Of a DNA stretch of 64,000 nt, positions 4,701 to 40,888 are shown piece after piece. This DNA is from Powellomyces hirtus (lineage: Eukaryota > Chytridiomycota > Chytridiomycetes > Spizellomycetales > Powellomycetaceae). Position 1 is the first letter of the stretch; the number at the start of each line of letters is the position of its first letter. Location of the stretch: positions 1,612,001 to 1,676,000 of the forward strand of contig JAHLKG010000002.1 in assembly GCA_025526995.1 (NCBI GenBank), given 5' to 3'. The position numbers were made by a program, and so were the translations under genes. Under the pieces are notes generated by a model. That model was not told the origin of the DNA and did not search any database. It worked only from the letters and a program-made list of their open reading frames with translations.

Positions 4701-5651
4701 ATCGTGAGCGATCGGGACCCCAAGTGGCTAGCAGAATTCTGGCGGTACCTTATGCGGGCACTCGACGTCAAGCAGGAACTTTCGTCGGCACGACATCAGC
4801 AGACCGACGGCAAGGCGGAGAACGCCATCAAGACGATCAAGGGAATCATGGGCCCCTTTCTTGACTATGCCGGCTCCAACTGGAAGAGTTTACTCCCCAC
4901 CCTCGAGTACAACTACAACCGAACGCCGCAGACATCGACGGGACTATCCCCTTTCGAGATTGACCTAGGCCGCGTTCCCCGAGTACCGAACCAATGGGTA
5001 GCACCTAACCCCGGAGAGATAATAAGACAATCGGCACGAACCGCCGTGGAGAGACGGATTAAGGAATTTGCCGACGTGAGTCGCATCGTGCAGCAACGGC
5101 TCCGAGACGCACAGGACCAGCAGGCAAAGTACTACGACCGCAAGAAGCACACGGAAGCATACCGAGAGGGTGACAAGGTCTTACTTCATCGTGAGGGTAT
5201 CGCAATTACCAGCATCACCACAAGGAACAAAAAGCTAGCTGAACAATGGATTGGGCCATTCACAATACGCGGCAAGGGCCCGCATCCTGACACCTACGAG
5301 CTCGAACTACCCAAGGAGTTCACCGGGTTGCACCCAGTCTTTCATGTCAGCATTCTGAGACGTTACCATGACCCGGGCGGTACCCCGTACAGACAGGTCA
5401 CCGCCCCGCCTGAGCCCGAGAAGGACGAAGACGGTCAGGAGACCTACCAAGTGGACAAGATCCTAAATGCCAGATGGCACAGGAACACCGAGCAGTTCTT
5501 AGTCAAGTGGACAGGTTACGACAACACCCAGAACACGTGGGAGCCGTATGCACACGTGAAGGGAACGACCGCACTGGAAGAATGGCTCCGGGAGCACCCC
5601 GGAGAGGACCGCGGCCAAAGGCTAGCGGCCAGGCGACGTAAGAGAGCCTAG
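1722..5651 (+). pseudogene. pol: pol of element A (PR-RT-RNaseH-IN-chromodomain, one nonsense codon)
   Basis: This is the co-linear equivalent of the 1309-codon pol of copy B, lying -1 relative to gag and overlapping its end. It has a DTG aspartic protease (ILIDTGCNT), then a TGA at 2193-2195 where copy B has CGA. The rest is open from 2343 to 5651: RT with YLDD, RNase H (FTDASG), an integrase HHCC zinc finger (GGHSG...CPTCQRHK), a DDE core (GMDIFF, SDRDPKW, TDGKAENA) and a C-terminal chromodomain (FLVKWTGYDNTQNTWEP). The chromodomain is expected to target integration to marked chromatin. No ATG starts the frame near gag, so expression by frameshift is inferred. Confidence 0.9.
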
Positions 5652-5699: not shown

Positions 5700-6440
5700 A
5701 GGACATTATAGTGTGAGATTCCGGCATCGTTGGACGATGGCCGGAGGCTGCTGGGCAGCATACCTCGCTGGGCGAGATGCCGGCATCGTTGGACGATGGC
5801 CGAAGGCTGCTGGGCAGTATACCTCACTAGGTGAGATGCCGGGATCGCTGGGCGATGAGCCGACGGCTTGCCGATGCAAGGTGACCGGCACCAGATTTGC
5901 ATGGCGGCGTACCTCGAGACCCGCGGGGACCATGGCCGTGGTACATACCTATGCGAAGGGGAAGAGAAGGGCTTCGGCCAAGATACCGGAATCGTTTGAC
6001 GATGGGCCGAAGGCCGCTGGGCGGCATACCTCACTGGGTGAGAAGGGTGATGCTGGGCATCGACCGGCTGCCGATGCAAGGTGACCGGCACCAGATTTGC
6101 ATGGCAGCGTACCTCGAGACCCGCGGGGACCATGGCCGTAGTACATACCCACGCGAAGGGGAAGAGAAGGGCTTCGGCCAAGATACCGGCATCGTTTGAC
6201 GATGGGCCGAAGGTCGCTGGGCGACATACCTCGCTGGGCGAGATGCCGGGATCGCTGGGCGATGAGCCGAAGACTGCGAGGCAGTAGACCTCACGAGGTG
6301 AGATGCCGGCATCGTTGGACGATGGCCGAAGACTGCGAGGCAGTAGACCTCACGAGGTGAGATACCAGCATCGTTGGACGATGGCCGGGGAACCGCTGGG
6401 CGGTCTTCCCAATGGGGAAGTGTGATGCAGGGCATCTACC
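5700..6440 (+). repeat. Covarying mini-hairpin array of element A
   Basis: Imperfect tandem units of roughly 60 bp are built from three consecutive mini-hairpins with 5-6 bp stems and 3-nt loops, joined by short linkers such as GCCGAAG. Examples are CATCGT-TGG-ACGATG, GCTGC-TGG-GCAGC, CTCGC-TGG-GCGAG, ACTGC-GAG-GCAGT, CTCAC-GAG-GTGAG and GTCGC-TGG-GCGAC. Stem sequence differs between units but both arms change together. A perfect 12-bp palindrome, GATGCCGGCATC, joins neighbouring units. The array is non-coding and lies between pol and the 3' end of the antisense gene. Its function is unknown; a structured RNA region or a recombination-prone DNA structure are both possible. Confidence 0.85.
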
Positions 6441-6654: not shown

Positions 6655-7393
6655 TCAACCAATCTTGGTGAAGGAGAATTGGCACCGGATGCCGTGGCAC
6701 CGGTCGCCCAACCCGCACCGGAGGGGGGTGTAATTTGCCACGTTCATCTCGCTGCGAAGAGAGCTGAGTTAGTCAGGTAAGACAGCAGCAGGCCGAAGAG
6801 TACTACTTACGCGCGGACGTGGCCCATGCAGTGGAGATGGTTGCATGGAAACATGCGGAGGTCCGCTCCGACATGGTTGCAGCCAGCGAACTGGCACCCG
6901 GCGGGGATGGCCGCGAAGAAGAGGACCCGGTCGCAGTGGGGGGCGCCGCATGTCAACTGGCCCTGAGGGCCGTCGTTCTGGAAAGCAAAGGAACAAGGGA
7001 ACCATACCGTTAGGAAGACATCAGGCCGCCTCTCAGCGAAGGGGAACATACCGTGTCGTCGGCCGCCGCCGCGATGCAGGGCCGGCACACCAGATGGTGG
7101 CATTCAGACATAAACATCTTGCTCTTGCGGAATTGGCGGCACTTCCAGCAGGCGGGCAAGTCGGCCGACCTCTCGGGGGTGGACTTTTCATGGACCGAGG
7201 GGTCCTGGAGACAACAAGGGAAGACGGGGAACATGAGACGAGTTGCCACAGCCGAGGATGAGCACCGACCCCTACTTACCTGGGCGGGCTGGGCCCGCTT
7301 GGTCGCGCCCTTTGCGAGTTGTTGGGTGGGCCGGCGCTTGCCCGTGGTGGTGGTGTCGGAGGGGAGAGGAGAGTTGTTGGCGACGTCGGCCAT
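6655..7393 (-). CDS. Antisense RING-like Cys/His protein carried by element A, three introns
   Basis: This host-style spliced gene lies inside the retrotransposon on the strand opposite to gag-pol. Exons are 7280-7393, 7052-7204, 6811-6977 and 6655-6751. Introns are 75, 74 and 59 bp with GTAAGT/GTATGT donors and CAG acceptors. The exons sum to 531 nt, exactly 176 aa plus stop. The N-terminus is basic and Thr-rich. Exon 2 has a RING-type core (CWKC, then ECHHLVCRPC). Exon 3 has more paired Cys/His (PCNHLHCMGH) and exon 4 ends with CGLGDRCHG. A zinc-binding, possibly E3 ubiquitin ligase-like role is inferred from the core alone. Because it is antisense, its introns cannot be spliced from the genomic sense RNA, which explains their survival through retrotransposition. 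Copy B has the same gene with few changes. Confidence 0.85.
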
Positions 7394-7835
7394 GTTGTCT
7401 GTATGTATGTATGTGTGTGATGTGTGTGTGTCGGGCTACAAAGGAAAGAAGAGTGAGAGGGGGGAGATTCAACGGGCAGTACCTTTTAAAGGCTCGACCT
7501 GCTTGGGAATGCTCGGAAATTCAGGTGTTAGTGTTTCATCCCCTACGGAGCGCAGCAGATGTTACTTATCGAAATCCACATGGAGGAAGCTACTTGTGAT
7601 TCATCTAGGGCCCCTGCGAAGAGAGAAATAGACTTTCCGACGATTTCGCGCACCACGAAGGGCGGAGACTACCCGTCGGAGACTACCGCGACGCGACCCG
7701 CGCCAGGGCCGCCTCCCCAGCCTCATCTTCCCACAACCACGTCAGCATCCGTTAACCCGCCGCCGCCTGGCTTAGGCAAGCTTCGCCCCGCTGAAGAGAT
7801 TCGAGCCTAAGAGATAGTCGCGAATCTAAGGGGGG
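7394..7835 (-). promoter_or_regulatory. Upstream region of the antisense gene plus polypurine tract
   Basis: About 440 bp lie between the antisense ATG and the 3' LTR. A TATA-like TTTAAAAG lies about 95 bp upstream of the ATG on the minus strand. Much of the block is near 88 percent identical by eye to the equivalent block of divergent copy C (10577-10940), so it is probably the antisense promoter and leader. The sense-strand end, AATCTAAGGGGGG just before the LTR, is the polypurine tract that primes plus-strand DNA synthesis. Confidence 0.6.
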
Positions 7836-8110
7836 TGTAATGAGGCGTGGCTCACCAGCCTAAGCCTAGACACACGTCGGGAAGGGTCCCGTGCGAGATG
7901 GATGCTAGCGTCAGCATCCCGAAGGGTACTAGACCTCAGGGATGGCCACGGATGGCCATCACGTGACTAGGGCCGCTCTGCGGCCTAGAAGAAAAGTAGG
8001 AATGCTCCGACGAGGGCGCATTCAAGACTTAGAGATCTTACAGTAGAACTAGACATAGGGAATTCCCGAATAGAAGACTAGACTCTGGCAACGGACCTAG
8101 TAATATTACA
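7836..8110 (+). repeat. 3' LTR of element A
   Basis: 275 bp, TGTAATGAGG...TAATATTACA, five transitions from the 5' LTR. It is followed by GAAGG, an LTR of element E, rather than by the expected TACTG duplication. The crossover that joined A to E therefore probably occurred in this LTR. Confidence 0.92.
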
Positions 8111-10991: not shown

Positions 10992-11725
10992 ATGGACGTC
11001 GACCGCAACAACTCCCCGTCCCCCAACACCACCACCACCACCACCACGGCTAAACGCCGTAGCAACAAACAGCTGCAGAAGGCAGCCGCGAAGAAGGTCC
11101 AGCTCGCCGGGGTGAGTGAAGTCTTGACTGTTCCCGTCGGTCGCGGTAATCCCCTTACGCCGTCTCACAGGAGCCGACCGTCCACTACGATTCGGCCCCG
11201 GAGGTCGTGGCCGCAACCAGCACCTGCTGGAAATGCCGCCTGCACAAGGGTGGCAAGATGTTCCTCGGGGAATGTCACCACATGATTTGTCGGCCATGTA
11301 TCGTGGCCTTGGCCGACGCCACAGTACGTTCCCGCTGGCTATGAGGCTTCCCGGTGTCGTTTGGTACTCATTTCCTCTCTCTCTTCTTCCCTTCTGTAGG
11401 ACACTGGCCCTCTGGGCCAGTTTGTGTGTGGTGTCGACCGGTGCGGGAGGACGCTGCACTTCGGTGCAATCCCGGTCTGTTGCGTCCATGACGCATGCCC
11501 CTCCGCCGTGGTGGCCCTCCGTTGGCTCCCCTGCGCCCATGTCAACTGCATGGCGCACATTCGCGCGTAAGTCATCTCTTCTTGTCGATTGTGCGCTTAC
11601 CTTACCGGCTGATCCATTTCTCCCATAGCGAAATGAACATTGCGAATTTCACTCCGCTCCGATGCGGCATGGGGGAGCGCTGCCACGGGGCAAAATGCCT
11701 CTTCTCATTCACCCGTATCAACTAG
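10992..11725 (+). CDS. Divergent antisense RING-like Cys/His protein of element C, three introns
   Basis: Exons are 10992-11111, 11171-11323, 11400-11566 and 11629-11725, totalling 537 nt (178 aa plus stop). Exons 2, 3 and 4 have exactly the same lengths (153, 167, 97) and intron phases as in copy A, although the introns themselves are unlike. The product has a basic Thr-rich N-terminus (KRRSNKQLQKAAAKK), CWKC...ECHHMICRPC in exon 2, LPCAHVNCMAH in exon 3 and CGMGERCHG at the end. Exon 2 is about 55 percent identical to copy A at protein level, yet all Cys and His of the cores are kept. It is antisense to element C (plus strand). This looks like a functional protein under constraint; its activity is not known. 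Confidence 0.85.
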
Positions 11726-11929: not shown

Positions 11930-12135
11930 GTGCTCATGGTAGATGCCCTGCATCACACTTCCCCGTTGGGGAGACCACTCAGCGGTTCCCCGGCCATCGT
12001 CCAATGATGCCGGTATCTCACCTAGTGAGGTCTACTGCCTCGCAGTCTTCGGCTCATCGCCCAGCGGGATATGCTGCCCAGCAGCCTTCGGCCATCGTCC
12101 AACGATGCCGGCATCTCACCTCATGAGGTCTACTG
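11930..12135 (-). repeat. Hairpin array of element C, left part
   Basis: The same kind of mini-hairpin array as in A and B, in reverse orientation. It is interrupted after TACTG (12131-12135) by element B and resumes with TACTG at 20034. Confidence 0.85.
12131..12135. other. Target-site duplication of element B, left copy
   Basis: TACTG directly precedes the 5' LTR of B. TACTG at 20034-20038 directly follows the 3' LTR. Five bases is the usual length for Ty3/gypsy integration. Confidence 0.85.
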
Positions 12136-12410
12136 TGTAATGAGGCGTGGCTCACCAGCCTAAGCCTAGACACGCGTTGGGAAGGGTCCCGCGCGAGATG
12201 GATGCTAGCGTCAGCATCCCGAAGGGTACTAGACCTCAGGGATGGCCACGGATGGCCATCACGTGACTAGGGCCGCTCCGCGGCCTAGAAGAAACGTAGG
12301 AATGCTCCGACGAGGGCGCATTCAAGACTTAGAGATCTTACAGTAGAACTAGACATAGGGAATTCCCGAATAGAAGACTAGACTCTGGCAACGGACCTAG
12401 TAATATTACA
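12136..12410 (+). repeat. 5' LTR of element B
   Basis: 275 bp, TGTAAT...ATTACA. It differs from the 3' LTR at gcgttggg/gcgtcggg, gaaacg/gaaaag and atagaag/ataggag. The primer-binding site TGGTAGCACCAC follows at 12411-12422. Confidence 0.95.
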
Positions 12411-12438
12411 TGGTAGCACCACCCCGTAGACGACAACA

Positions 12439-13650
12439 ATGGCACGTAGCACCAGGAACAGCCCAATGGCAGTAGGAGAACCCGAAGTCGACACACCGAC
12501 CGACAACCCCGTCGCAATGTTAGCTGCACAATTGGCGGAGACCCAACGCCTACTGCAGGAACAGATCGCAATGGGAGAGGCCCGCTTCGAAGCCCTTCTC
12601 TCAAGGATTCCGACTCCAGCCCAACCAGCAGTTGCAACACCGCACGTCGACATCACCCTGGCGGAAGAGAACCGCGCACGAATGCAAGCTGAGAAGGAAC
12701 GCCGCGAGAACCTTCGCAAGCAGCTGACACACTTCGACGGAAAAGGGAACAGTGAAGAGATGGTGTCGAAGGTCGATGAGTTCTTGAAGGTCCACACGCG
12801 CTACCTTGAGGCAACCGACTTCAGGACGGACCACCGGGACGTCGACCACATCTCGGGGTACCTCAAGGAAACCGCCGACGAATGGTGGCAAATGCTCAGA
12901 GATGCCGGCGACCAGCCCACGACATTGGAAGAATTCACGAGGGTCCTCCGCATCCGCTTCTACCCCGCCAACTTACGAAACACCGCAGAAGCAAAGATGA
13001 AGCGGTTGGTTTTCACCAATAGCATATCGGAGTATATCGCCAAGTTCAATACCCTTCGGGCCCAGATCGCGACACTCGACGACAAGGAGCGGCTTACCCC
13101 AAGGCAAGAACGTGACTATTTCTTGACGGGATTCTCGACCAACCATGTCGGCCAGCGCATTCGGGACCACTGCTATGCCGCAATCATGAGGAATAATGGC
13201 GCCGAGATCCCGATCACCGAGCTACAGAACGAAGCTCTACTATGCTACAGGATTCGAGGATATGCGGACGATGTCGCGCAGGTAACCCCCAACGGGAGGA
13301 GACGTCAGTACGCTGCAGTCCAGCCGGCTCAGGTACATCGAGGGAACTATCAAGCACGAGAAAGGGGACGCCACACCCCCTATGGCTCAGGTCGTCCCAC
13401 ACGCGGTATGGACAACTACCAAGGGATTTCACGCCGTGAGCGCACCATCTACGACGAACGCCTTGAGCACAACGAATGTTTCAACTGCGGGGGCAAAGGG
13501 CATTACGCCCGTGGGTGCTCAGCAAGTAAAGGTAAAACCGGTGAGCATAGGACGTTCGCCGCCCCTGTAGAGATCACTGAAGGGTCCGGAGACGAGGCGG
13601 CCAGCGACGGGGGCTCAGTCAACAGCTCGGATTTTCGCCCCGGGTGCTGA
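12439..13650 (+). CDS. gag: Gag polyprotein of element B
   Basis: Intact 403-aa Gag. Residues about 1-110 are acidic and coiled (REER-type repeats near AEKERRENLRK). Residues about 110-270 form the capsid-like region typical of chromoviral Gag (ETADEWWQMLRDAG, then FTNSISEYIAKFNTL). The tail has a CCHC zinc knuckle, CFNCGGKGHYARGC (C-x2-C-x4-H-x4-C), for RNA binding. The start is the first ATG, 28 bases after the LTR, in a good context (ACAATGG). The end overlaps pol, which lies in the -1 frame. It assembles the cytoplasmic particle in which reverse transcription takes place. Confidence 0.92.
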   Translation: MARSTRNSPMAVGEPEVDTPTDNPVAMLAAQLAETQRLLQEQIAMGEARFEALLSRIPTPAQPAVATPHVDITLAEENRARMQAEKERRENLRKQLTHFDGKGNSEEMVSKVDEFLKVHTRYLEATDFRTDHRDVDHISGYLKETADEWWQMLRDAGDQPTTLEEFTRVLRIRFYPANLRNTAEAKMKRLVFTNSISEYIAKFNTLRAQIATLDDKERLTPRQERDYFLTGFSTNHVGQRIRDHCYAAIMRNNGAEIPITELQNEALLCYRIRGYADDVAQVTPNGRRRQYAAVQPAQVHRGNYQARERGRHTPYGSGRPTRGMDNYQGISRRERTIYDERLEHNECFNCGGKGHYARGCSASKGKTGEHRTFAAPVEITEGSGDEAASDGGSVNSSDFRPGC

Positions 13651-16600
13651 ACGCTTGCACCGTCTCAGTACCCCAACCCCGGATGCAAGACAAGATCCCC
13701 ACGGACAGACCGGGACCCCGCATTCACAGGAAGACATTTGTGGTCCACGGGAAGGTACAAGGGCACTTTGCCCGCATCCTAATCGATACCGGATGCAACA
13801 CCCTGATCATCAGCGACACTTGGGCCGCCAAACACGGCCTCCGGACCTACACCTCTCCAACTCCGCTGGAGGTCCGGTGGGGCGACAGAGCGGGAAACTA
13901 CGGGGCAACAAAGATGACCTGTGGGGACCTCTCGGTGTTCACCGAGGAGAAGATCACCTACCGGGAGGATACCGTACCATTCGTGGTCGCGCCGATCAGG
14001 GTCGATGCCATACTGGGCTTGCCATTCATATTGGGGCTGGATGTCCGAGGGCTTTTCGACCAAGAGGGCTTTCCAACGATGACGTTCTACCACGACGGCC
14101 AGACCCTCAGCCTTCGAGCCAAATCGACCAACCGCCACTGGGAAGCACCGTCCGCGTGCGCCGCCCGCCTACTCTCCCCACGAGAGGTACGGCCCCGCAG
14201 ATTCCAGCCGGCGAAGCCAGCACTCAATGCAGAGGGAATCTACACGGCCAAGCAATGGAAACGCTTGATGAAGAAGGGCGAGATCACTGGAGTCTTCGAG
14301 GTACACATCGTAGATGCGATTCCAGTCGCAGAGGCTCAATTTGTACGGACGCTCGACGCCAAGAAAAGGGCAATCTTGGAGGAACGACGCCACACCAACA
14401 CTGAAGCCAAGGCGGCAGATCAGGAAGACCCGCTGGAGGCGCTGGCAGCCGACCATCCACTCCGACTGACCCTAGAGAAATACGTCACGACGCTATTCAC
14501 CGAGCAGTCAGGCATGCCTCCGGACCGAGGCGAGGACAATTTCACCATTCGGCTCAAACCCGGCTCGAAGCCCGTGATGCAGCCACTCCGGCATTTGAGC
14601 CCTGACGAACTGGACGAGCTCGGCCAGCAGATGCAGCGTTTAATGGACAAGGGCTGGATCTCACACTCTCGCAGTCCGTGGGGCGCGCCCGTCCTATTTG
14701 CCCCAAAGAAGGACGGCGGCCTACGCTGCTGCATCAACTACCGGGCACTGAACAAGATGACTCACAAGGATGCCACGCCACTTCCGAACCTCTCGGAGCT
14801 GCGTGACAGGCTGGTCAACATGCGGGTATTCACCGCGATCGACATCCGCGACGCGTACCACTGCATCATGATCCGACCGGAAGATAGGGAGAAAACAGCG
14901 TTCCGAACACGTTTCGGACATTTCGAATACAATGTTCTACCTTTCGGCGTAACTAATGCACCTGCTACATTCCAGCGACTAACCAACAAACTCTTGGGCG
15001 ACAAGTACGACGCCTACGTGATCTCGTACCTCGACGATATTCTCATATTCAGCACTGACATGAGTTCGCACATTCAGCACGTCGACGAGGTCCTCAAGAC
15101 CTTGACGGAACATCGCCTCAACGTCAAACCCAGCAAATGTCAATGGGCGGTTGACGAAGTCGAGTTCTGCGGCCACCGAGTCAGCAAGGATGGCCTGAGT
15201 ATCGCCCCCTCCAAGGTGACCGCGGTCCGGGAACGACCCTGCCCGACCAACTCCCTGGAGCTCCTTAGCTTCATGGGCCTCGTCAACTATGTCAAGGAAT
15301 ACATCCCCGAGTATGCACAGATTGCCCTACCCCTAACGAATCTGCAATCCGGCAACCGCCCATGGCAGTGGGGTGACGAGGAAGATCGAGCGTTCAATCG
15401 CTTAAAGGAATTATGCTCCTCGGCACCCACCCTAGCGTACTTCGACCCGGCGCTCGACACCTACTTGTTCACGGACGCATCGGGCTACGCCTACGGCGGA
15501 TGGCTGGCGCAACCGGCCAAAGGGGATTTCCCTTACCCTCACCCACTACCAACCACCAAATCGGGCTTAGCCAACCTCCCGCAACTTCGCCCGGTGACAT
15601 ACTACTCCCGCAAGATGCAACCCGCCGAGACTCGATACCCCGTGCATGAACAAGAACTACTGGGATTAGTCAAATCCATACACGCCAACTGCCATTACCT
15701 CATCGGCCGCCCATTCCGCGCGTTTGTTGACCACAAATCCCTGATCTACCTCCAGGAACAACCCCACCTGTCACGTCGCCAAGCAGGCTGGGTCGCGTTT
15801 CTCCAACAGTTCAATTTCTCAGTGGAATACCTCCCCGGCACATGGAATTCAATCGCCGACTTCCTCAGTCGCAACCCGACTTATGCCCCCAAGTGTGCAA
15901 CCTGCCAGGCCAAGATCGACGTGGTCACCGCCATTGTGCAGATGGAGAAGCCCGTCCCGACGCACATGCCGACCGCTGCGGACTGGACCCAAGCGCTCGC
16001 ATCGGATGATTTCGGCCAAAACATCTTACTAACCATCAACAGTCCACCGGAGAACCTATCCGGCCATGCACGCCGGTTCCGGACAGTGGACTCCCCTCCG
16101 CACCGCTTCTTGATGTACCATGACCGTCGGTACGTCCCCGACAGCTTGCGGGGGCCACTCCTTCAGATTCATCACGACTCCCTCGCGAACGGTGGTCACT
16201 CCGGTGTCCAACGAACGCTCGCCAAACTTTTGGAGTCGTACTATTGGCCTCACATGGAGCGTGATGTGTACCAATATGTCCGCACCTGCCCTACCTGCCA
16301 ACGTCACAAGCGAACCACGCCGATCGGTTTCCTCCGCAGCTTACCGATCCCCGACGCTCGTTGGCAACAAATCGGCATGGATATATTCTTCCCCACGTCA
16401 GGCTCTAAGGGGGGGGAACCTCGGGTAGAGCCCGACGTGACGAAGAACCCTTCGCACCACACCGGCGAGAGACTGACCAAGACGGCGGACGCCGTACTCC
16501 TCATCGTTGACTACCTTACATGCCGCGTGATACTTCTACCGCCTAACACACGCGCTACAGCTCCGGAGACGGCTCAACTCTTTCTAGAACAGGCATTCCG

Positions 16601-17573
16601 CCACACGGGGTTACCGCACACCATCGTGAGCGATCGGGACCCCAAGTGGCTAGCAGAATTCTGGCGGTACCTTATGCGGGCACTCGACGTCAAGCAGGAA
16701 CTTTCGTCGGCACGACATCAGCAGACCGACGGCAAGGCGGAGAACGCCATCAAGACGATCAAGGGAATCATGGGCCCCTTTCTTGACTATGCCGGCTCCA
16801 ACTGGAAGAGTTTACTCCCCACCCTCGAGTACAACTACAACCGAACGCCGCAGACGTCGACGGGACTATCCCCTTTCGAGATTGACCTAGGCCGCGTTCC
16901 CCGAGTACCGAACCAATGGGTAGCACCTAACCCCGGAGAGATAATAAGACAATCAGCACGAACCGCCGTGGAGAGACGGATTAAGGAATTCGCCGACGTG
17001 AGTCGCATCGTGCAGCAACGGCTCCGAGACGCACAGGACCAGCAGGCAAAGTACTACGACCGCAAGAAGCACACAGAAGCATACCGAGAGGGTGACAAGG
17101 TCTTACTTCATCGTGAGGGTATCGTGATTACCAGCATCACCACAAGTAACAAAAAGCTAGCTGAACAATGGATTGGGCCATTCACAATACGCGGCAAGGG
17201 CCCACATCCTGACACCTACGAGCTCGAACTACCCAAGGAGTTCACCGGGTTGCACCCAGTCTTTCATGTCAGCATTCTGAGACGTTACCATGACCCGGGT
17301 GGTACCCCGTACAGACAGGTCACCGCCCCGCCAGAGCCCGAGAAGGACGAAGACGGTCAGGAGACCTACCAAGTGGACAAGATCCTAAATGCCAGATGGC
17401 ACAGGAACACCGAGCAGTTCTTAGTCAAGTGGACAGGTTACGACAACACCCAGAACACGTGGGAGCCGTATGCACACGTGAAGGGAACGACCGCACTGGA
17501 AGAATGGCTCCGGGAGCACCCCGGAGAGGACCGCGGCCAAAGGCTAGCGGCCAGGCGACGTAAGAGAGCCTAG
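13644..17573 (+). CDS. pol: Pol polyprotein of element B (PR-RT-RNaseH-IN-chromodomain)
   Basis: Intact frame of about 1309 aa, open from 13581, in -1 relative to gag and overlapping its last 70 nt. There is no ATG near the gag end, so it is probably made as a Gag-Pol fusion by -1 frameshifting. The start given (GTG) is only the first usable codon. Domains in order are: protease (ILIDTGCNT, residues about 45-55), RT with LPFG and YLDDILIFS (about 450-470), RNase H (FTDASG), integrase zinc finger (HxxxGGHSG, CPTCQRHK), DDE core (GMDIFF, VSDRDPKW, TDGKAENA) and a chromodomain near the C-terminus (FLVKWTGYDNTQNTWEP). All catalytic residues I can check are present. The chromodomain places it in the chromovirus clade. 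Confidence 0.93.
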   Translation: MLNACTVSVPQPRMQDKIPTDRPGPRIHRKTFVVHGKVQGHFARILIDTGCNTLIISDTWAAKHGLRTYTSPTPLEVRWGDRAGNYGATKMTCGDLSVFTEEKITYREDTVPFVVAPIRVDAILGLPFILGLDVRGLFDQEGFPTMTFYHDGQTLSLRAKSTNRHWEAPSACAARLLSPREVRPRRFQPAKPALNAEGIYTAKQWKRLMKKGEITGVFEVHIVDAIPVAEAQFVRTLDAKKRAILEERRHTNTEAKAADQEDPLEALAADHPLRLTLEKYVTTLFTEQSGMPPDRGEDNFTIRLKPGSKPVMQPLRHLSPDELDELGQQMQRLMDKGWISHSRSPWGAPVLFAPKKDGGLRCCINYRALNKMTHKDATPLPNLSELRDRLVNMRVFTAIDIRDAYHCIMIRPEDREKTAFRTRFGHFEYNVLPFGVTNAPATFQRLTNKLLGDKYDAYVISYLDDILIFSTDMSSHIQHVDEVLKTLTEHRLNVKPSKCQWAVDEVEFCGHRVSKDGLSIAPSKVTAVRERPCPTNSLELLSFMGLVNYVKEYIPEYAQIALPLTNLQSGNRPWQWGDEEDRAFNRLKELCSSAPTLAYFDPALDTYLFTDASGYAYGGWLAQPAKGDFPYPHPLPTTKSGLANLPQLRPVTYYSRKMQPAETRYPVHEQELLGLVKSIHANCHYLIGRPFRAFVDHKSLIYLQEQPHLSRRQAGWVAFLQQFNFSVEYLPGTWNSIADFLSRNPTYAPKCATCQAKIDVVTAIVQMEKPVPTHMPTAADWTQALASDDFGQNILLTINSPPENLSGHARRFRTVDSPPHRFLMYHDRRYVPDSLRGPLLQIHHDSLANGGHSGVQRTLAKLLESYYWPHMERDVYQYVRTCPTCQRHKRTTPIGFLRSLPIPDARWQQIGMDIFFPTSGSKGGEPRVEPDVTKNPSHHTGERLTKTADAVLLIVDYLTCRVILLPPNTRATAPETAQLFLEQAFRHTGLPHTIVSDRDPKWLAEFWRYLMRALDVKQELSSARHQQTDGKAENAIKTIKGIMGPFLDYAGSNWKSLLPTLEYNYNRTPQTSTGLSPFEIDLGRVPRVPNQWVAPNPGEIIRQSARTAVERRIKEFADVSRIVQQRLRDAQDQQAKYYDRKKHTEAYREGDKVLLHREGIVITSITTSNKKLAEQWIGPFTIRGKGPHPDTYELELPKEFTGLHPVFHVSILRRYHDPGGTPYRQVTAPPEPEKDEDGQETYQVDKILNARWHRNTEQFLVKWTGYDNTQNTWEPYAHVKGTTALEEWLREHPGEDRGQRLAARRRKRA

Positions 17574-17621: not shown

Positions 17622-18362
17622 AGGACATTATAGTGCGAGATTCCGGCATCGTTGGACGATGGCCGGAGGCTGCTGGGCAGCATACCTCGCTGGGCGAGAT
17701 GCCGGCATCGTTGGACGATGGCCGAAGGCTGCTGGGCAGTATACCTCACTAGGTGAGATGCCGGGATCGCTGGGCGATGAGCCGACGGCTTGCCGATGCA
17801 AGGTGACCGGCACCAGATTTGCATGGCGGCGTACCTCGAGACCCGCGGGGACCATGGCTGTGGTACATACCTACGCGAAGGGGAAGAGAAGGGCTTTGGC
17901 CAAGATACCGGCATCGTTTGACGATGGGCCGAAGGCCGCTGGGCGGCATACCTCACTGGGTGAGAAGGGTGATGCTGGGCATCGACCGGCTGCCAATGCA
18001 AGGTGACCGGCACCAGATTTGCATGGCAGCGTACCTCGAGACCCGCGGGGACCATGGCCGTAGTACATACCCACGCGAAGGGGAAGAGAAGGGCTTCGGC
18101 CAAGATACCGGCATCGTTTGACGATGGGCCGAAGGTCGCTGGGCGACATACCTCGCTGGGCGAGATGCCGGGATCGCTGGGCGATGAGCCGAAGACTGCG
18201 AGGCAGTAGACCTCACGAGGTGAGATGCCGGCATCGTTGGACGATGGCCGAAGACTGCGAGGCAGTAGACCTCACGAGGTGAGATACCGGCATCGTTGGA
18301 CGATGGCCGGGGAACCGCTGGGCGGTCTTCCCAATGGGGAAGTGTGATGCAGGGCATCTACC
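17622..18362 (+). repeat. Covarying mini-hairpin array of element B
   Basis: Near-identical to the array of copy A. It has the same hairpin types with coordinated changes in both stem arms, for example CTCAC-TAG-GTGAG next to CTCGC-TGG-GCGAG, and repeated GATGCCGGCATC palindromes. Confidence 0.85.
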
Positions 18363-18577: not shown

Positions 18578-19316
18578 TCAACCAATCTTGGTGAAGGAGA
18601 ATTGGCACCGGATGCCGTGGCACCGGTCGCCCAACCCGCACCGGAGGGGGGTGTAATTTGCCACGTTCATCTCGCTGCGAAGAGAGCTGAGTTAGTCAGG
18701 TAAGACAGCAGCAGGCCGAAGAGTACTACTTACGCGCGGACGTGGCCCATGCAGTGGAGATGGTTGCATGGAAACATGCGGAGGTCCGCTCCGACATGGT
18801 TGCAGCCAGCGAACTGGCACCCGGCGGGGATGGCCGCGAAGAAGAGGACCCGGTCGCAGTGGGGGGCGCCGCATGTCAACTGGCCCTGAGGGCCGTCGTT
18901 CTGGAAAGCAAAGGAACAAGGGAACCATACCGTTAGGAAGACATCAGGCCGCCTCTCAGCGAAGGGGAACATACCGTGTCGTCGGCCGCCGCCACGATGC
19001 AGGGCCGGCACACCAGATGGTGGCATTCAGACATAAACATCTTGCTCTTGCGGAATTGGCGGCACTTCCAGCAGGCGGGCAAGTCGGCCGACCTCTCGGG
19101 GGTGGACTTTTCATGGACCGAGGGGTCCTGGAGACAACAAGGGAAGACGGGGAACATGAGACGAGTTGCCACAGCCGAGGATGAGCACCGACCCCTACTT
19201 ACCCGGGCGGGCTGGGCCCGCTTGGTCGCGCCCTTTGCGAGTTGTTGGGTGGGCCGGCGCTTGCCCGTGGTGGTGGTGTCGGAGGGGAGAGGAGAGTTGT
19301 TGGCGACGTCGGCCAT
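18578..19316 (-). CDS. Antisense RING-like Cys/His protein carried by element B, three introns
   Basis: The same gene as at 6655-7393 in copy A, shifted by 11923 bp, with the same four exons and three introns. Two amino-acid changes are visible in the part read: Gln to Arg at the end of exon 1, and Ala to Val after CRPCI. The RING-like core CWKC...ECHHLVCRPC and the downstream PCNHLHCMGH are unchanged, and all splice sites are intact. It lies between the hairpin array and the polypurine tract, opposite in strand to gag-pol. Intactness in an otherwise intact element suggests it is a working part of the transposon rather than a captured passenger in decay. Confidence 0.85.
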
Positions 19317-19758
19317 GTTGTTTGTATGTATGTATGTGTGTGATGTGTGTGTGTCGGGCTACAAAGGAAAGAAGAGCGAGAGGGGGGAGATTCAACGGGC
19401 AGTACCTTTTAAAGGCTCGACCTGCTTGGGAACGCTCGGAAATTCAGGTGTTAGTGTTTCATCCCCTACGGAGCGCAGCAGATGTTACTTATCGAAATCC
19501 ACATGGAGGAAGCTACTCGTGATTCATCTAGGGCACCTGCAAAGAGAGAAATAGACTTTCCGACGATTTCGCGCACCACGAAGGGCGGAGACTACCCGTC
19601 GGAGACTACCGCGACGCGACCCGCGCCAGGGCTGCCTCCCCAGCCTCATCTTCCCACAACCACGTCAGCATCCGTTAACCCGCCGCCGCCCGGCTTAGGC
19701 AAGCTTCGCCCCGCTGAAGAGATTCGAGCCTAAGAGATAGTCGCGAATCTAAGGGGGG

Positions 19759-20033
19759 TGTAATGAGGCGTGGCTCACCAGCCTAAGCCTAGACACGCGT
19801 CGGGAAGGGTCCCGCGCGAGATGGATGCTAGCGTCAGCATCCCGAAGGGTACTAGACCTCAGGGATGGCCACGGATGGCCATCACGTGACTAGGGCCGCT
19901 CCGCGGCCTAGAAGAAAAGTAGGAATGCTCCGACGAGGGCGCATTCAAGACTTAGAGATCTTACAGTAGAACTAGACATAGGGAATTCCCGAATAGGAGA
20001 CTAGACTCTGGCAACGGACCTAGTAATATTACA
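19759..20033 (+). repeat. 3' LTR of element B
   Basis: 275 bp, preceded by the polypurine tract AATCTAAGGGGGG and followed by the duplicated TACTG. Confidence 0.95.
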
Positions 20034-20545
20034 TACTGCCTCGCAGTCTTCGGCCATCGTCCAACGATGCCGGCATCTCACCTTGTGAGGTCTACTACCT
20101 CACAGTCTTCGGCCATCGTCCAACGATGCCGGCATCTCACCTCGTGAGGTCTACTGCCTCGCAGTCTTCGGCTCATCGCCCAGCGATCCCGGCATCTCGC
20201 CCAGCGAGGTATGTCGCCCAGCGACCTTCGGCCCATCGTCAAACGATGCCGGTATCTTGGCCGAAGCCCTTCTCTTCCCCTTCGCGTGGGTATGTACTAC
20301 GGCCATGGTCCCCGCGGGTCTCGAGGTATGCTGCCATGCAAATCTGGTGCCGGTCACCTTGCATCGGCAAGCCGTCGGCTCATCGCCCAGCGATCCCGGC
20401 ATCTCACCCAGTGAGGTATGCTGCCCAGCAGCCTTCGGCCATCGTCCAACGATGCCGGCATCTCGCCCAGCGAGGTATGCTGCCCAGCAGCCTTCGGCCA
20501 TCGTCCAACGATGCCGGAATCTCACACTATAATGTCCTCTACCTC
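20034..20545 (-). repeat. Hairpin array of element C, right part
   Basis: Continuation of the array that stops at 12135. It starts with the second TACTG of the element B target site. It contains the same mini-hairpins in reverse orientation and ends about 40 bp before the stop of the element C pol frame. Confidence 0.85.
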
Positions 20546-34901: not shown

Positions 34902-35067
34902 TTATGGCCCAAAAGCGGCTAACTTTGTCACAAGACCGATTGCAAGCGCCTTTCTGATTTTGACGTTGTCTGCATCGGAAGCAAGAGGCAGACTCAAATG
35001 CTTCATAGCATTGGTGGTCTGTACCTCAATCCACGTGACTTCATCGAAAACGTCAAGACTCAAATTC

Positions 35068-35324
35068 TGTTGTGCGTAGGTCCGGTTAAGGGGTAGTGCA
35101 ACAGAGAAAAGCTAGCTCGACACTCTCGATGACAATGGAATGATTGTGTTATTGTTAAGTGTAAACGATGGGTGAAGGAGAGCTACACTACGAAGAAGAA
35201 AGGTGGCTGTGCAAGCTATCTAAGCATTTGCGGTCAGATGAAGCACCATTGCGCAGCGGGGGTCACGTGGAGTCTTAGAGCGCTGCCGATTTGACAGGTT
35301 TATCTCAAAAGTCCAATCTCAACA
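35068..35324 (-). repeat. Left (3') LTR of the copia element
   Basis: 257 bp. It differs from 40184-40440 at gcattt/gcattc, cttaga/cttgga and ctgccg/ctgtcg. Confidence 0.93.
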
Positions 35325-35348
35325 CTCCCCCGACTTTGGAGACCAAAC

Positions 35349-35789
35349 ATGCCACAAAACGGTCGAGCTCCGAAGTGTCCCGTTTGTCTTTTTCGAGATG
35401 CCGAATTCTGTGGGGACTGCGGGCACCTGCTGTGCTTCCGGTGTTTGAAGTACATTTGGGTGACACCTGACGACGCCGCAAGCAGATGTGTTATCTGCAG
35501 GTGAGGAAGAAGCCCCGTTGTGCTGGTTTCAGGGTACTGATATCTCGCATTGCACAGAAAAGAGTGGATTAACCTCTTTGAAGGGGAAGTAACGAGAAGG
35601 CGGTGTGACAGGTGTTACAAAAGAAAAGACTGTCGGACGCCGCATGCCTGTGGAGAAAGAAACCCCTGTTTTCTGTGTGAGAGCTGTTCACGGGGTCTGG
35701 TGCATCGAAGTGGAGAAATACATTGCCCGAAATGCAACAAGTCGGACCGTCGATTGAGATGGTGGTTGCGGCGGGTGTATTTCAACTAG
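35349..35789 (+). CDS. Antisense RING-finger protein carried by the copia element, one intron
   Basis: Spliced gene opposite in strand to the copia pol. Exons are 35349-35500 and 35558-35789; the intron is 57 bp (GTGAGG...TGCACAG). They sum to 384 nt, 127 aa plus stop. The N-terminal half is a canonical C3HC4 RING: CPVC, ten residues, C-G-H, LLC, FRC, then CVIC. A second Cys/His cluster follows (CDRC, CRTPHAC, CFLCESC, HCPKC). The tail is basic and aromatic (RRLRWWLRRVYFN). RING fingers often recruit ubiquitin-conjugating enzymes, so an E3 ligase role is plausible but inferred. Its stop lies only 18 bp from the stop of pol on the other strand. It is not obviously alignable to the gypsy antisense proteins beyond the zinc motifs. 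Confidence 0.85.
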
Positions 35790-35807: not shown

Positions 35808-38291
35808 TCAGTGAGATTTGGCGTAATCTGATTTCGTTCGGAGTCCAGTTCGATGTCGCAGGTCATCAAGTAATGGGCGAGGTAGCGGTTTCGTCAGGGC
35901 GTCAGCCAGCATGAGCTTGGACTCAATGTACTGTAGGTGAATGCGCTCGTTACCGACGAGGTCTCGCAGGAAGTGATAACGGACATCGATGTGTTTGGTT
36001 CGTTGGTGATGCGTCGGATTGGCGGCAAGCTTGATAGCGGCCTGATTGTCCTCATAGATGAGAACTGCTGTCTGCTCCGTTGCTGACAGTTCGGATAGGA
36101 GACCCTGGATCCAGAGTGCTTCCTTTGCACATTCCGCGAGTGCAATGTATTCTGCTTCTGCTGTGGATAGCGCCGTTGATTTTTGACGTTGAGATTTCCA
36201 TGAAATAGCAGCTCCGTTGAGCATGAATACATAGCCAGAGGTTGAGCGACGCGTGTCCGTACAGCGTGCGTAGTCGGCATCCGAATATCCGACAATATCT
36301 CCCCCATCTTGGAAGACAAGAGAGAGATCACTGGTTGTGTTTGCGTACGCGCAAACTTTCTTTGCGGCCGTCATGTGTGCGGCCGTCGGTGCTGCCAGAA
36401 ACTGAGATAAACGGGAAACTGAGTAGGCCAGGTCAGGGCGAGTCCCTAACATCAGATACATTAGTGTTCCAATGATCGACTGATATTCCTTGATTCCTGA
36501 TGCGTCGAGGGCGTCGGCTCCATCGTGCGCGTTTAGATGTAAGGTCAGGTCCATCGGGATGTGATGCGGCCGCATGCCGTTAAGGTTAAACTTGTCGATC
36601 ATGTCTTTGATGTACTTCTGTTGGCCGATGGTAATGCATCGCTTTGACCGGTCGCGCGTAATCTGAAGACCGAGAAGGAAAGAGATCTCCCCCATGTCCT
36701 CCATCTTGAAGCGTTCGGCAAGCGCGGATTTGAGAGCGAGCAGGTCATCGAGGTTTGATGCGAAAATCGTGAGATCATCCACGTAGACGGCAACAATCAG
36801 GATCCTTGTGTTGTCAGTCCGCTTAATGTAGAGCGCGGTGTCGAGTTCTGATACTGAGAACCCGAGCTGTTGAAGAAAGGAGTCGAGAACCTTGTTCCAT
36901 AGGCGCGGCGATTGTTTAAGGCCGTAAAGGGAACGGCGGAGTTTGACGACGTCGTCAGCGACGCCGGCTGGGAGCCGCATCCAGATTTCTACGTCGAGAT
37001 CTCCGTTGAGAAATGCGGTGATGACATCCATCTGATGGACGTGAAGGTCGAGCTTAGCGGCAAGCGCGAGTAGCGCCCGCAAGGTGTTAAACTTGACGAC
37101 GGGCGCATATGTTTTGTTGAAGTCAATGCCTTCACGCTGCGTGAAGCCTCGGGCGACGAGGCGGGCTTTGAACTTCTTGATGGAACCTTCGGCGTTGCGT
37201 TTGACTTTGAAGACCCATTTGGAATCAACAAGGTGAGTGCCAGACGGTGTTTGCGTGGTGTCCGTGTCCCACGTCTTGTTAGTGCGGTGAGACGAGAGTT
37301 CAGCGTCGATCGCTTGTTTCCACTCTTTCGCGTACGGCGAGTTGATTGCCGCCTGGTAAGTGGCGGGCTCGTCAATGTCAGTGCTGCATGCGGCATGCAG
37401 TTCGGCGATTACGGGTGTGCCTTCATCTTCGATTCCGGTGAATTGCGTCAGGGCCTCTGAATCCTTGACGTTGTCGAGGGGTTCCCATGTCGGTTCGTCG
37501 TAGCCAAGCCACTTGACCAGGAATTCCTCTCCCCCTTCGCCGTTGCGAGAGAGTAAGATGCGCTCAACCACATATTCAGGAGTGGTGTCGCTCTGAGCGA
37601 CAGGGCTGACGTAATCAGCCTCGTTAATTGTGACGTCTCGTGCGTCGATGATCGAATCCGTCGATGCATCGTAAAGACGATAGTTGCCTTGTTTAGTGGG
37701 GTGATATCCCACTAGTCGGAACGGTCCGACAGCGCGAGCTCCGAGCTTGCGGTGTGTGCGACGGCGCACAGGTTGATGCATATAGGCCACGCTCCAGATG
37801 GTGCGGAGGTTCGATACATCGGCAGGGGTCCCAAACCAACGTTGGTATGGGGTCTCTCCGTTGAGAGACGTTGATGGCGTCCGTTGACGCAGGTAGTTGA
37901 CGGCCATAGCGAGTTCTCCCCAAAGTTTGAAAGGAGCGCGGCTGTCATGAAGAATCGCTCGGACCTGGTCCATGAGCGTACGGTTGAACCGTTCAGCAAT
38001 GCCATTTTGCTGAGAGGAGTACGGGTGAGTGGGGTTTAACGTGATCCCATCGGCGAGCAGCTCAGCCTGTAGGGGATAGTATTCACCGCCGTTATCGCAG
38101 CGCAGCTCCTTGATCTTGGAGTCGAGATGGCGTTCAGCGTACGCGCGATAGTTTTGCCAATAATCGTTGGTTTGATCTTTGGTCTTGAGGAGGTAGATGA
38201 CGGAATACCGTGTGTATTGGTCAATGAACGTGAGGATGTAGCGGGCGCCAGAGAGGGAGAGAAGATTGGCGCCCATGTCAAAAATGTCCAA
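35808..38291 (-). CDS. pol: Copia pol: integrase, RT and RNase H
   Basis: Open frame of 827 aa from the printed Met. The frame continues upstream to include the pre-integrase zinc region (LWHQRFGHIG...CSGCSLGKS) near 38290-38500. Integrase core is DIFDMGAN, then CDNGGEYY and QQNGIAERFNRT. A chromo-like segment follows (EEFLVKWLGYDEPTWEPLDN). RT has WVFKVKRNAEG, HQMDVITAFLNG and YVDDLTIF. RNase H has GYSDADYA, ALSTAEAEYIAL and the KHIDVRYHFLRD motif. The C-terminus ends LGNERIHL-type, then DALTKPLP. It is in a different frame from gag-protease, so either frameshifting or a one-base mutation near 38520 separates them. Confidence 0.88.
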   Translation of the reverse strand: MDIFDMGANLLSLSGARYILTFIDQYTRYSVIYLLKTKDQTNDYWQNYRAYAERHLDSKIKELRCDNGGEYYPLQAELLADGITLNPTHPYSSQQNGIAERFNRTLMDQVRAILHDSRAPFKLWGELAMAVNYLRQRTPSTSLNGETPYQRWFGTPADVSNLRTIWSVAYMHQPVRRRTHRKLGARAVGPFRLVGYHPTKQGNYRLYDASTDSIIDARDVTINEADYVSPVAQSDTTPEYVVERILLSRNGEGGEEFLVKWLGYDEPTWEPLDNVKDSEALTQFTGIEDEGTPVIAELHAACSTDIDEPATYQAAINSPYAKEWKQAIDAELSSHRTNKTWDTDTTQTPSGTHLVDSKWVFKVKRNAEGSIKKFKARLVARGFTQREGIDFNKTYAPVVKFNTLRALLALAAKLDLHVHQMDVITAFLNGDLDVEIWMRLPAGVADDVVKLRRSLYGLKQSPRLWNKVLDSFLQQLGFSVSELDTALYIKRTDNTRILIVAVYVDDLTIFASNLDDLLALKSALAERFKMEDMGEISFLLGLQITRDRSKRCITIGQQKYIKDMIDKFNLNGMRPHHIPMDLTLHLNAHDGADALDASGIKEYQSIIGTLMYLMLGTRPDLAYSVSRLSQFLAAPTAAHMTAAKKVCAYANTTSDLSLVFQDGGDIVGYSDADYARCTDTRRSTSGYVFMLNGAAISWKSQRQKSTALSTAEAEYIALAECAKEALWIQGLLSELSATEQTAVLIYEDNQAAIKLAANPTHHQRTKHIDVRYHFLRDLVGNERIHLQYIESKLMLADALTKPLPRPLLDDLRHRTGLRTKSDYAKSH

Positions 38292-38428
38292 GTGTATGCG
38301 ATCAAGTGGTTTGGTTGCAGGTCGAGAGTTTTGCCCATTGAAGGGCAGCCGAGTGGATTTACCGAGGGAGCAGCCGGAGCACAGCGCGTGTTCCGGTTCG
38401 ACGTTGTTTGGCAGATCGAGAGAGTAGA

Positions 38429-40102
38429 TCAGATTCGCAGCTTGAAGCGCTCGTTGTCCAATGTGCCCAAAGCGTTGATGCCATAGTTTATAGACATTGC
38501 GGTCCTTTGTTTTGCAGCTTCGGTCGCAAAAGCAGCGGCGGTGGTTTCAACATAACCATCGATAAATGGCAGGTTTCCGTTGTGGCGGAGCGGTAGGATA
38601 ACGCGGCCGTTCTTTAAAATGGAGGAACCGTTAGTTGAGAATGTGATTTCGTAACCGTCCCGGTTCAGTGGCGATGTGGAAACCAAGTTGCGGCTCGCTT
38701 CAGGTACGTAGAGCACGTCGACGCAGACAATGGCTTCGTCCGTGTCGTTATTGCTGATGGTGAGTGTGCCTGCTTCGCAAGCGGTAAGGTTTTCGCCGTT
38801 TGCAACGCTGATTTGGACTGCCGGGATGGGTCGCAGGTCAGTAAGGAGAATAGCGTCCTTGATAATGTGGTGCGTTGCGCAAGAATCAAGGGCAATTGAG
38901 TGCGAGGACCTGTGGTTAGTTGCCAAAACGAGGTTTGCTTCGGCAGCAGGTTCTTGCTGATGTTGTTTAAGGAGCTCGCGCGCGTCCTTCATTTTCGGGC
39001 AGTCCTTCATCCAATGACCGGTTTGTTCGCAGAGGAGGCAGGGAGATCCTGGAACTGAGCGGCGGCGTTGTTTTTTCCACGATTTTCGGGGCGCGTGTTC
39101 ATTGGTGTTGGCGTCCGAATTGCCATGCATCACATGGGCTTCAACGTGAGACTCGGTTTTGGGCACACAAGCGCCCCGTTCTGAGGTAAGCTGTTCCTGT
39201 CGGATTGCGGCTTCCTGCATGGCGTCCAGATCCAAGAGATCCTTTGAGATGATGGCTGAGTAGATAGGACGCTTGAGTCCCTTGAGATAGCAATGCTCGA
39301 TTTCTCCTTTGTTCATGTCGGGAATCTGCATGACGAGTTTGTTGAACGCATTGTTGTATGCAATAACCGACGTGGTCTGCGAAAGATCATCCAGTTTATC
39401 GCGGATCATCGAGCTGAACGCTGGTGGTGTGAATCTCAGGCGTAGCGTTGTTTTGAGATGATTCCATGTTCGAGGGGCGGTCCCCTGGCTTTCCTGGGTC
39501 CTCCACCAGATGTGAGCGGTAGATGTGAGTTTGCTTACCGCCATTTTTGCTTTGAGAAGTGGCGGAAGGTATGCAACCTCGAAAAAGTCGTCCAGTTTTG
39601 CAATGAATTCGAGAAGTAATTGCGGGCTACTCATATCGCCATTGAAGTTGGGAACTTGTTTAAGGAGCTCCTTTGCGACGGAATTCATTGAGGACGACGT
39701 GGGAGAAGAATTCTCTGATGAGCGAGAGTGTGGGCGGTCCTCCGGGAAGACGTGAGGGTTTGCAGCGGCGGCCGTCTGCATTTGCATTTGTGCGAAGGTA
39801 GAAATCAGCTTTTCCATCATCTCTTGTTGGGATTCAGCCGCAAGGTGCTGAGACTCCCTTTGTGACTCGGCGGCGAGTTGCTGCGATTCCAGCAGCATGC
39901 GTTCCTGCATTTCGGCGATAATGCGTTGGGATTCCAACAGCGCCTTCTCCAAATACTCCTTGGTGACGATCTCGTCGTCAGGTCGAGCGGCTCGACTCTT
40001 GTCGTCCTCACTGTGAGGACCCTCATCTGCAGAATCCTGCGTCGGCGCAGGGGCAGTGTTTGTTCCGGACCTGGTCCGAATGGGGCTACGGGACAATGGC
40101 AT
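38429..40102 (-). CDS. gag: Copia gag and protease
   Basis: 557-aa frame from ATG 40102. It has an acidic, Gln/Glu-rich coiled N-terminus with repeated QLAAESQ, a capsid-like region (FNGDMSSPQLLLEFIAKLDDF, read in two parts), then a CCHC knuckle CLLCEQTGHWMKDC. It continues into a protease-like domain whose active site reads LDSCATHH. Most copia proteases have DSGAT or DTGAT, so a Gly to Cys change (GGC to TGC) at the catalytic loop may disable this copy. The frame ends at 38429 just after the join where the pol frame should take over. Confidence 0.85.
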   Translation of the reverse strand: MPLSRSPIRTRSGTNTAPAPTQDSADEGPHSEDDKSRAARPDDEIVTKEYLEKALLESQRIIAEMQERMLLESQQLAAESQRESQHLAAESQQEMMEKLISTFAQMQMQTAAAANPHVFPEDRPHSRSSENSSPTSSSMNSVAKELLKQVPNFNGDMSSPQLLLEFIAKLDDFFEVAYLPPLLKAKMAVSKLTSTAHIWWRTQESQGTAPRTWNHLKTTLRLRFTPPAFSSMIRDKLDDLSQTTSVIAYNNAFNKLVMQIPDMNKGEIEHCYLKGLKRPIYSAIISKDLLDLDAMQEAAIRQEQLTSERGACVPKTESHVEAHVMHGNSDANTNEHAPRKSWKKQRRRSVPGSPCLLCEQTGHWMKDCPKMKDARELLKQHQQEPAAEANLVLATNHRSSHSIALDSCATHHIIKDAILLTDLRPIPAVQISVANGENLTACEAGTLTISNNDTDEAIVCVDVLYVPEASRNLVSTSPLNRDGYEITFSTNGSSILKNGRVILPLRHNGNLPFIDGYVETTAAAFATEAAKQRTAMSINYGINALGTLDNERFKLRI

Positions 40103-40169
40103 GATTGAGTATTGAACAACGTGAAGAAGGATGCAGGATGTTTGTCGTTTTAAGCGTTGAGCGGGCTGA

Positions 40170-40183
40170 CAGGGCTCATAACC
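40170..40183 (-). other. Primer-binding site of the copia element (internal tRNA-iMet type)
   Basis: On the minus strand GGTTATGAGCCCTG directly follows the 5' LTR. It is complementary to the anticodon arm (CAGGGCTCATAACC) of a eukaryotic initiator tRNA-Met, not to its 3' end. Priming by a cleaved half-tRNA is known for Drosophila copia and several fungal copia elements. Confidence 0.8.
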
Positions 40184-40440
40184 TGTTGTGCGTAGGTCCG
40201 GTTAAGGGGTAGTGCAACAGAGAAAAGCTAGCTCGACACTCTCGATGACAATGGAATGATTGTGTTATTGTTAAGTGTAAACGATGGGTGAAGGAGAGCT
40301 ACACTACGAAGAAGAAAGGTGGCTGTGCAAGCTATCTAAGCATTCGCGGTCAGATGAAGCACCATTGCGCAGCGGGGGTCACGTGGAGTCTTGGAGCGCT
40401 GTCGATTTGACAGGTTTATCTCAAAAGTCCAATCTCAACA
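40184..40440 (-). repeat. Right (5') LTR of the copia element
   Basis: 257 bp with TGTTG/CAACA ends, followed by the AATTC duplication at 40441-40445. Confidence 0.93.
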
Positions 40441-40888
40441 AATTCTTGGCAAAAGTTGGCGTGCGACTGTTCAGGTTCTGCGGCAATCGCCTCAAAGATG
40501 GTCAAAATGGTCAAATGGTCGCCCGAGGGGTGAACGAACTGACTTTTGACTACTGCCGCTTTATCCTTGAACCCCCAAGGGGAAAAAAAAAAGTGACCGG
40601 TCACATTCCAGCACGCTCACAATCTTTGCCACTTGAACAGAACAGCGAATAGCTGCAATCACAGCACGGGCAGATTCAGGGCCTAAAGGCAGTGATGAGA
40701 TCTTCCGACCGAGATCAGTGACAGAACCGTCTGCAGTAATGGCCCAAAGGCAAAAGAGGAGTTCCAGACCGCACATGGCCATTTCAGGTGCTGCAAAGAT
40801 AATCTTTAATGAGACACGGTGCTTAGGGCTCTGCGAACAGAAACCAACACATACCTGAAATGGCAGAATCAACCAGATGGCTGTTCAT

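Follow-up and report, generated by a model that had tools for sequence, protein, structure and literature searches.

The window, by which we mean the whole 64,000-nucleotide stretch of Powellomyces hirtus DNA analysed here, contains a Ty1/copia retrotransposon on the minus strand and, opposite its pol, a two-exon gene encoding a RING-finger protein. The features of this locus are as follows.

35068-35324, minus strand: 3' LTR of the copia element, 257 bp, 254/257 identical to 40184-40440
35325-35348: 5' leader of the RING gene, with a tract that is purine-rich on the minus strand, 6/24 columns variable among 35 copies
35349-35789, plus strand: whole RING gene, two exons, 127 aa, 57-bp intron
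35349-35500, plus strand: RING exon 1, C3HC4 RING, terminating in CVICR
35501-35557, plus strand: RING intron, 57 bp, phase 2, GTGAGG...CTGAT...GCACAG
35558-35789, plus strand: RING exon 2, encoding the second Cys-rich cluster (C67-C110) and a basic tail up to the stop
35808-38546, minus strand: copia pol open frame with integrase, SH3, CHROMO domain and RVT_2, convergent with the RING gene
38429-40201, minus strand: gag open frame (stop to stop) with Retrotrans_gag, Ty3_capsid, CCHC and Pol_BBD
40184-40440, minus strand: 5' LTR of the copia element, aligned to 35068-35324

The carrier element and the structure of its antisense gene

The carrier exhibits the hallmarks of Ty1/copia elements: LTRs ending in TGTTG..CAACA, a target duplication (AATTC at 35063-35067 and 40441-40445) and an integrase located upstream of the RVT_2 reverse transcriptase. 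In Pfam, its gag did not match the copia-type PF14223, which is present in another copia clade of the same genome, and matched PF03732 and PF19259, which are of Ty3 type. Judging from these domains, the gag looks exchanged, a Ty3-type gag accompanying a copia-type pol. With a chromodomain in pol as well, the stretch 35808-40201 is a mosaic of two superfamilies; the available parts of two reports describe Ty1/copia chromodomains solely from diatom CoDi elements (PMC2774666, 2009; PMC5348765, 2017).

The original prediction of a two-exon gene opposite copia pol, lying between the pol stop and the 3' LTR, was borne out by the 127-aa frame spliced over the 57-bp intron and by the coordinates of the LTR pair and of pol. 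The RING stop ends at 35789 and the pol stop begins, on the plus strand, at 35808, the two genes converging 18 bp apart. The RING gene occupies the whole interval, 24 bp from the LTR at one end and 18 bp from the pol stop at the other. The unspliced frame meets a TGA directly after the RING, and two in-frame TGA codons lie inside the intron. Eight GT..AG choices of 40-109 bases leave a frame of at least 100 residues open; three of them preserve the whole RING, the 57-bp intron being the shortest of these. The intron GT and AG are invariant in all 35 near-full-length copies, with an intron length of 56-59, whereas the CTGAT branch-like motif, starting 21 bases upstream of the intron end, is found in 25 of these copies and altered in 10.

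As little else lies upstream of the RING gene, the promoter must presumably be located in or near the 3' LTR; this LTR, placed directly upstream, could supply one. A separate antisense mRNA, initiated within the 3' LTR or next to it, would likely be produced and spliced. The survival of the intron is likely explained by the genomic RNA, which would carry only the complement of its splice sites.

Copies, selection and relatives

The RING gene was found at no fewer than 41 places in a genome DNA search (40 of 43 candidates scored). The pol end was searched separately (150 of 547 candidates scored), and rows with at least 73% identity were taken as the RING-carrying copia family. An antisense RING was located within 250 bp of 36 of the 38 family pol ends among the matches listed, which rules out the one-off host fragment, missing from other copia copies, that had been named as one of the outcomes fatal to the original prediction. 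The remaining two of these 38 are truncated matches, and 5 of the 41 RING places have no pol end among the matches listed. All 35 near-full-length copies have an LTR match next to the gene, and the pol end was matched in 34 of them; this alignment leaves out the partial matches L063, L064, L066, L069, L071, L076 and L077. Most copies therefore carry the frame antisense to pol, in the gap before the 3' LTR, as expected of an antisense accessory ORF. Since it recurs at 41 places and its splice sites and cysteines are preserved, the RING gene is more than a product of chance.

Codons 1-127 are free of stops and indels in 19 of the 35 copies and interrupted by a stop or indel in the other 16. The ATG is at codon 1 in 27 copies, at codon 2 in six, and lost in two. 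Compared with the window copy, the others differ mainly by transitions (972 vs 363 transversions), including some CGA to TGA changes, and this transition-rich decay possibly reflects methylation or a RIP-like process. With regard to genomic position, the 28 of 41 RING places on contigs with a copia-3 cluster were tested against uniform random positions; 19 lie within 100 kb of such a cluster, compared with 7.8 expected, a number that none of 5000 draws reached.

The cysteines resist change across the copia RING copies. All 17 cysteines were included in the column test; an alternative set of 17 ligands (H26 in, C76 out), chosen after the alignment was inspected, gives the same counts. Among 18 intact copies, 0/17 Cys columns are variable vs 65/110 other columns (p=1.4e-6). 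These figures become 4/17 vs 75/110 (p=8e-4) once L070 is added, a copy that is open but has lost four cysteines and whose match ends one base short of the stop with no frameshift, and 6/17 vs 88/110 (p=3e-4) in the 32 in-frame copies. At the codon level, Cys codons changed in 7/544 instances vs 478/3514 for the others, in rows that are related and not independent; all seven changes occur in three decayed copies.

The dN/dS evidence for selection within the family is weak. In codon models, a free omega beats omega=1 by 2.6 and 3.1 log units at the best kappa of the grid, a gain that depends on kappa, being far larger when kappa is fixed at 2 and shrinking to these values when it is raised; the "all" set of these models comprises 29 of the 35 copies, six frameshifted or ragged-ended ones being left out. 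The 0-fold sites are as variable as intron sites (p=0.88) and marginally less variable than 4-fold sites (p=0.05). In a neutral simulation, five diverged copies, with 8-20% of their coding bases changed, each remained stop-free with a chance of 0.07-0.29.

Several loci outside the element encode related proteins. The product of L073 (C1:350938-351361) is 49% identical to the copia RING protein, and its gene has an intron at the same place and in the same phase. Synonymous change between the two is saturated (pS 0.86, pN 0.36), yet L073 retains 16/17 cysteines (C76 lost) plus H26. No copia gag or pol match was found in the 8 kb examined around this locus, where the start codons of the L073 gene and of a divergently oriented dynein light-chain frame are some 360 bp apart. 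A segmental duplicate of L073, L074, has a stop in exon 1; the duplicated segment (L073:3942-5404 and L074:2722-4243) comprises the divergent pair of RING and dynein light chain, with one RING intact and one broken. At L072, the match is confined to exon 2, and the RING of L075 is broken. These loci may represent the donor lineage or old escapees, and the relative near the dynein light chain may mark the donor lineage.

L075 had been considered as a second copia-like element with a RING and was rejected, its RING being single-copy and broken. An antisense PHD gene near it was also dropped, the PHD-finger-like stretch being a separate repeat present at about nine places (L084:806-1232 and L075:3475-3803 among them); no copia pol was found within 1.4 kb of this stretch in the one other copy examined.

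The weak dN/dS signal, the stops and indels in 16/35 copies and the appreciable chance of stop-free survival would all suit a captured host gene that has no function now and rides along with a successful element. Such a passenger would not be expected to show invariant cysteine columns in the 18 intact copies (4/17 variable in 19), an invariant intron GT and AG, or 16/17 cysteines kept in the comparison with L073, and this explanation, already disfavoured, is very improbable.

The gypsy counterpart and a second copia clade

The original prediction had also pointed to a gene of the same slot, orientation and intron-bearing nature in a Ty3/gypsy family. Such an antisense, intron-bearing gene does lie between pol and the 3' LTR in the two window copies checked, which are given here with a comparison locus.

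6655-7393, minus strand: gypsy antisense RING-like gene, copy 1, with LTRs at 213-488 and 7835-8110 and pol frame at 2196-5651
18578-19316, minus strand: gypsy antisense RING-like gene, copy 2, with LTRs at 12135-12411 and 19758-20034 and pol frame at 13581-17573
10992-11725, plus strand: diverged gypsy-type RING gene, comparison locus

The exons of the gypsy gene read C-x2-C...C-x-H-x2-C-x2-C. At least 65 exon matches (E 1e-30 or better) were found genome-wide at 64 places or more (150 of 238 candidates scored), and two diverged copies in the window differ with a pS of 0.57 and a pN of 0.30. Tandem repeats separate gypsy pol from the antisense gene (window 5715-6387 and 17635-18309); the available part of a report on plant elements mentions similar repeats for about half of Retand elements (PMC11963269).

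As predicted, the copia and gypsy proteins could not be aligned outside their zinc motifs: a profile comparison, with a single sequence on the gypsy side, gave nothing beyond a 20-column Cys/His stretch (probability 1.1%). As this similarity does not extend beyond the Cys/His core and the exon structures differ, a separate origin of the two genes is favoured. Judged by these comparisons, two seemingly unrelated genes of one broad class hold one slot in two superfamilies. The reading first proposed, of a strategy shared by the retrotransposons of this genome, is weakened: an antisense RING is not a general rule, because another copia clade of this genome has just 7 bp between the pol stop and the LTR in the one copy examined. 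The coincidence in intron-bearing nature, although true of both families, should not be counted as independent, since introns would be stable in retroelements solely when the gene is antisense; retrotransposition would usually strip the intron from a gene in sense orientation, which may explain why antisense orientation and introns go together in both families.

This other copia clade (G000) is represented by at least 112 rows on 21 contigs. Its copies, of near-equal scores, are grouped in one stretch on most multi-copy contigs (C7 has two), for example C28:2374-66838 and C8:379670-440770, a pattern like that of centromeric elements.

Copy numbers bear on another possibility, modelled on the self-control of Ty1, namely that the antisense gene restricts its own element by limiting copy number through antisense RNA or degradation of gag-pol proteins. 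The RING gene converges on pol, and its transcript could run across the 18 bp into pol antisense; moreover, the family numbers at least 41 RING places, compared with 112 or more rows for the clade whose examined copy has no such gene. Two families are too few for copy numbers to prove much, however, and antisense RNA alone requires neither conserved cysteines nor splice sites. We consider self-restriction unlikely.

Protein class, proposed function and meaning

The C3HC4 RING and the second Cys cluster announced in the original prediction are both present in the window protein. By spacing, the RING ligands are C10-x2-C13, C24-x-H26-x2-C29-x2-C32 and C47-x2-C50; C21 is an extra conserved cysteine, and C67-C110 form the second Cys-rich cluster. 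The eight ligands follow the C3HC4 order and spacing and are invariant in the seven hand-picked members of an alignment. Pfam zf-C3HC4_4 gave E=0.0057 for the window protein (17.2 bits, below the curated cut-off of 30), and the best E value of the other members against Pfam RING models was 7.9e-5. When a profile of the seven members was compared with the PDB, the best match was RNF4 (E=1.3e-5, residues 9-54), followed by a RIM2 zinc finger (0.005); of the 51 rows with E up to 10, 48 were RING or E3 proteins by name. The protein shares its RING spacing with RNF4 and other RING E3 ligases, albeit at low similarity; two stretches were matched on the RNF4 chain, which we take to hold two RNF4 RINGs, and this is not informative on the second Cys cluster. 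The single sequence gave no PDB match below 0.03, the first being a complex I subunit (0.031, not a RING) and the next TRIM21 (0.033). One search of a protein database with the RING protein found no homologue. AlphaFold models of the single exons were poor (pLDDT 54), each exon alone being uninformative.

E3 RINGs use a hydrophobic residue and a terminal Arg. As both are kept in the copia protein together with the C3HC4 spacing, we regard it as probably a RING E3 ubiquitin ligase. An alternative is a zinc protein that binds nucleic acid or dimerises but has no ligase activity, and that regulates the LTR promoter or reverse transcription, like HBZ or Grande gene23. The tail rich in Arg and Trp, the Pfam RING score below threshold and the weak single-sequence PDB matches could be accommodated by such a protein, and in the available part of one report, other LTR elements are said to encode antisense proteins that are nuclear or possibly DNA-binding (PMC11963269). 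Conversely, the C3HC4 spacing and a profile that matches mostly RING or E3 proteins in the PDB are better explained by a ligase, and we judge the zinc-protein alternative rather unlikely.

Taken as a whole, the reading that this copia family carries an antisense RING accessory gene between pol and the 3' LTR, probably encoding an E3 ligase, appears reasonably likely to us. More tentatively, the ligase might help the element persist by acting in trans, either on a chromatin or silencing factor of the host, to which it would attach ubiquitin, or on proteins of the element itself, which it would tune. Within this step, a host factor acting where copies accumulate would be the most likely target: the chromodomain and the proximity to copia-3 clusters suggest heterochromatin, where the ligase could act on silencing factors. 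It is equally tentative that two unrelated LTR superfamilies independently took RING genes with introns from their host and use them as antisense E3 ligases, driven by the 3' LTR, to disarm host silencing.

HBZ is a spliced, 3'-LTR-driven bZIP protein of a retrovirus, HTLV-1. It is likewise an antisense accessory protein of an LTR element (PMC11963269). According to the available part of the same report, the plant Ty3/gypsy elements Retand, Grande and RIRE2 carry ORFs in antisense, in the stretch from pol to the 3' LTR, that are conserved across families. The copia RING gene shares their slot and orientation, whereas those elements are plant gypsy, with most Retand clusters encoding TRP28, and the present one is a Ty1/copia element with a RING and an intron; the gap between pol and LTR is about 480 bp here, compared with 2.9-6.6 kb in the plant elements. 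LTR families of bdelloid rotifers independently acquired ORF3 genes (DEDDy, GDSL), as far as the available part of that report goes (PMC5408684). Extra ORFs were thus acquired likewise, but the proteins differ, and the main text of that report has no word beginning with "ring". No RING gene in an LTR retrotransposon was found among the papers listed or the passages covered by our literature search, though this speaks only weakly for absence. Frames in antisense between pol and the 3' LTR are known from plant gypsy elements, and what seems new here is a predicted spliced RING in a copia family.

In the part of the literature available, accounts of antisense accessory genes in LTR elements come chiefly from the gypsy elements of plants and assign them no settled function (PMC11963269). 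A compact spliced RING in a copia element, together with an unrelated gypsy counterpart, points to a putative activity that can be assayed, ubiquitin transfer. It also suggests a rule whereby an intron-bearing gene is stably carried by retroelements only in antisense. Should the tentative scenario of independent uptake by two superfamilies hold, their ligases would be the retrotransposon counterpart of the RING accessory proteins of viruses.
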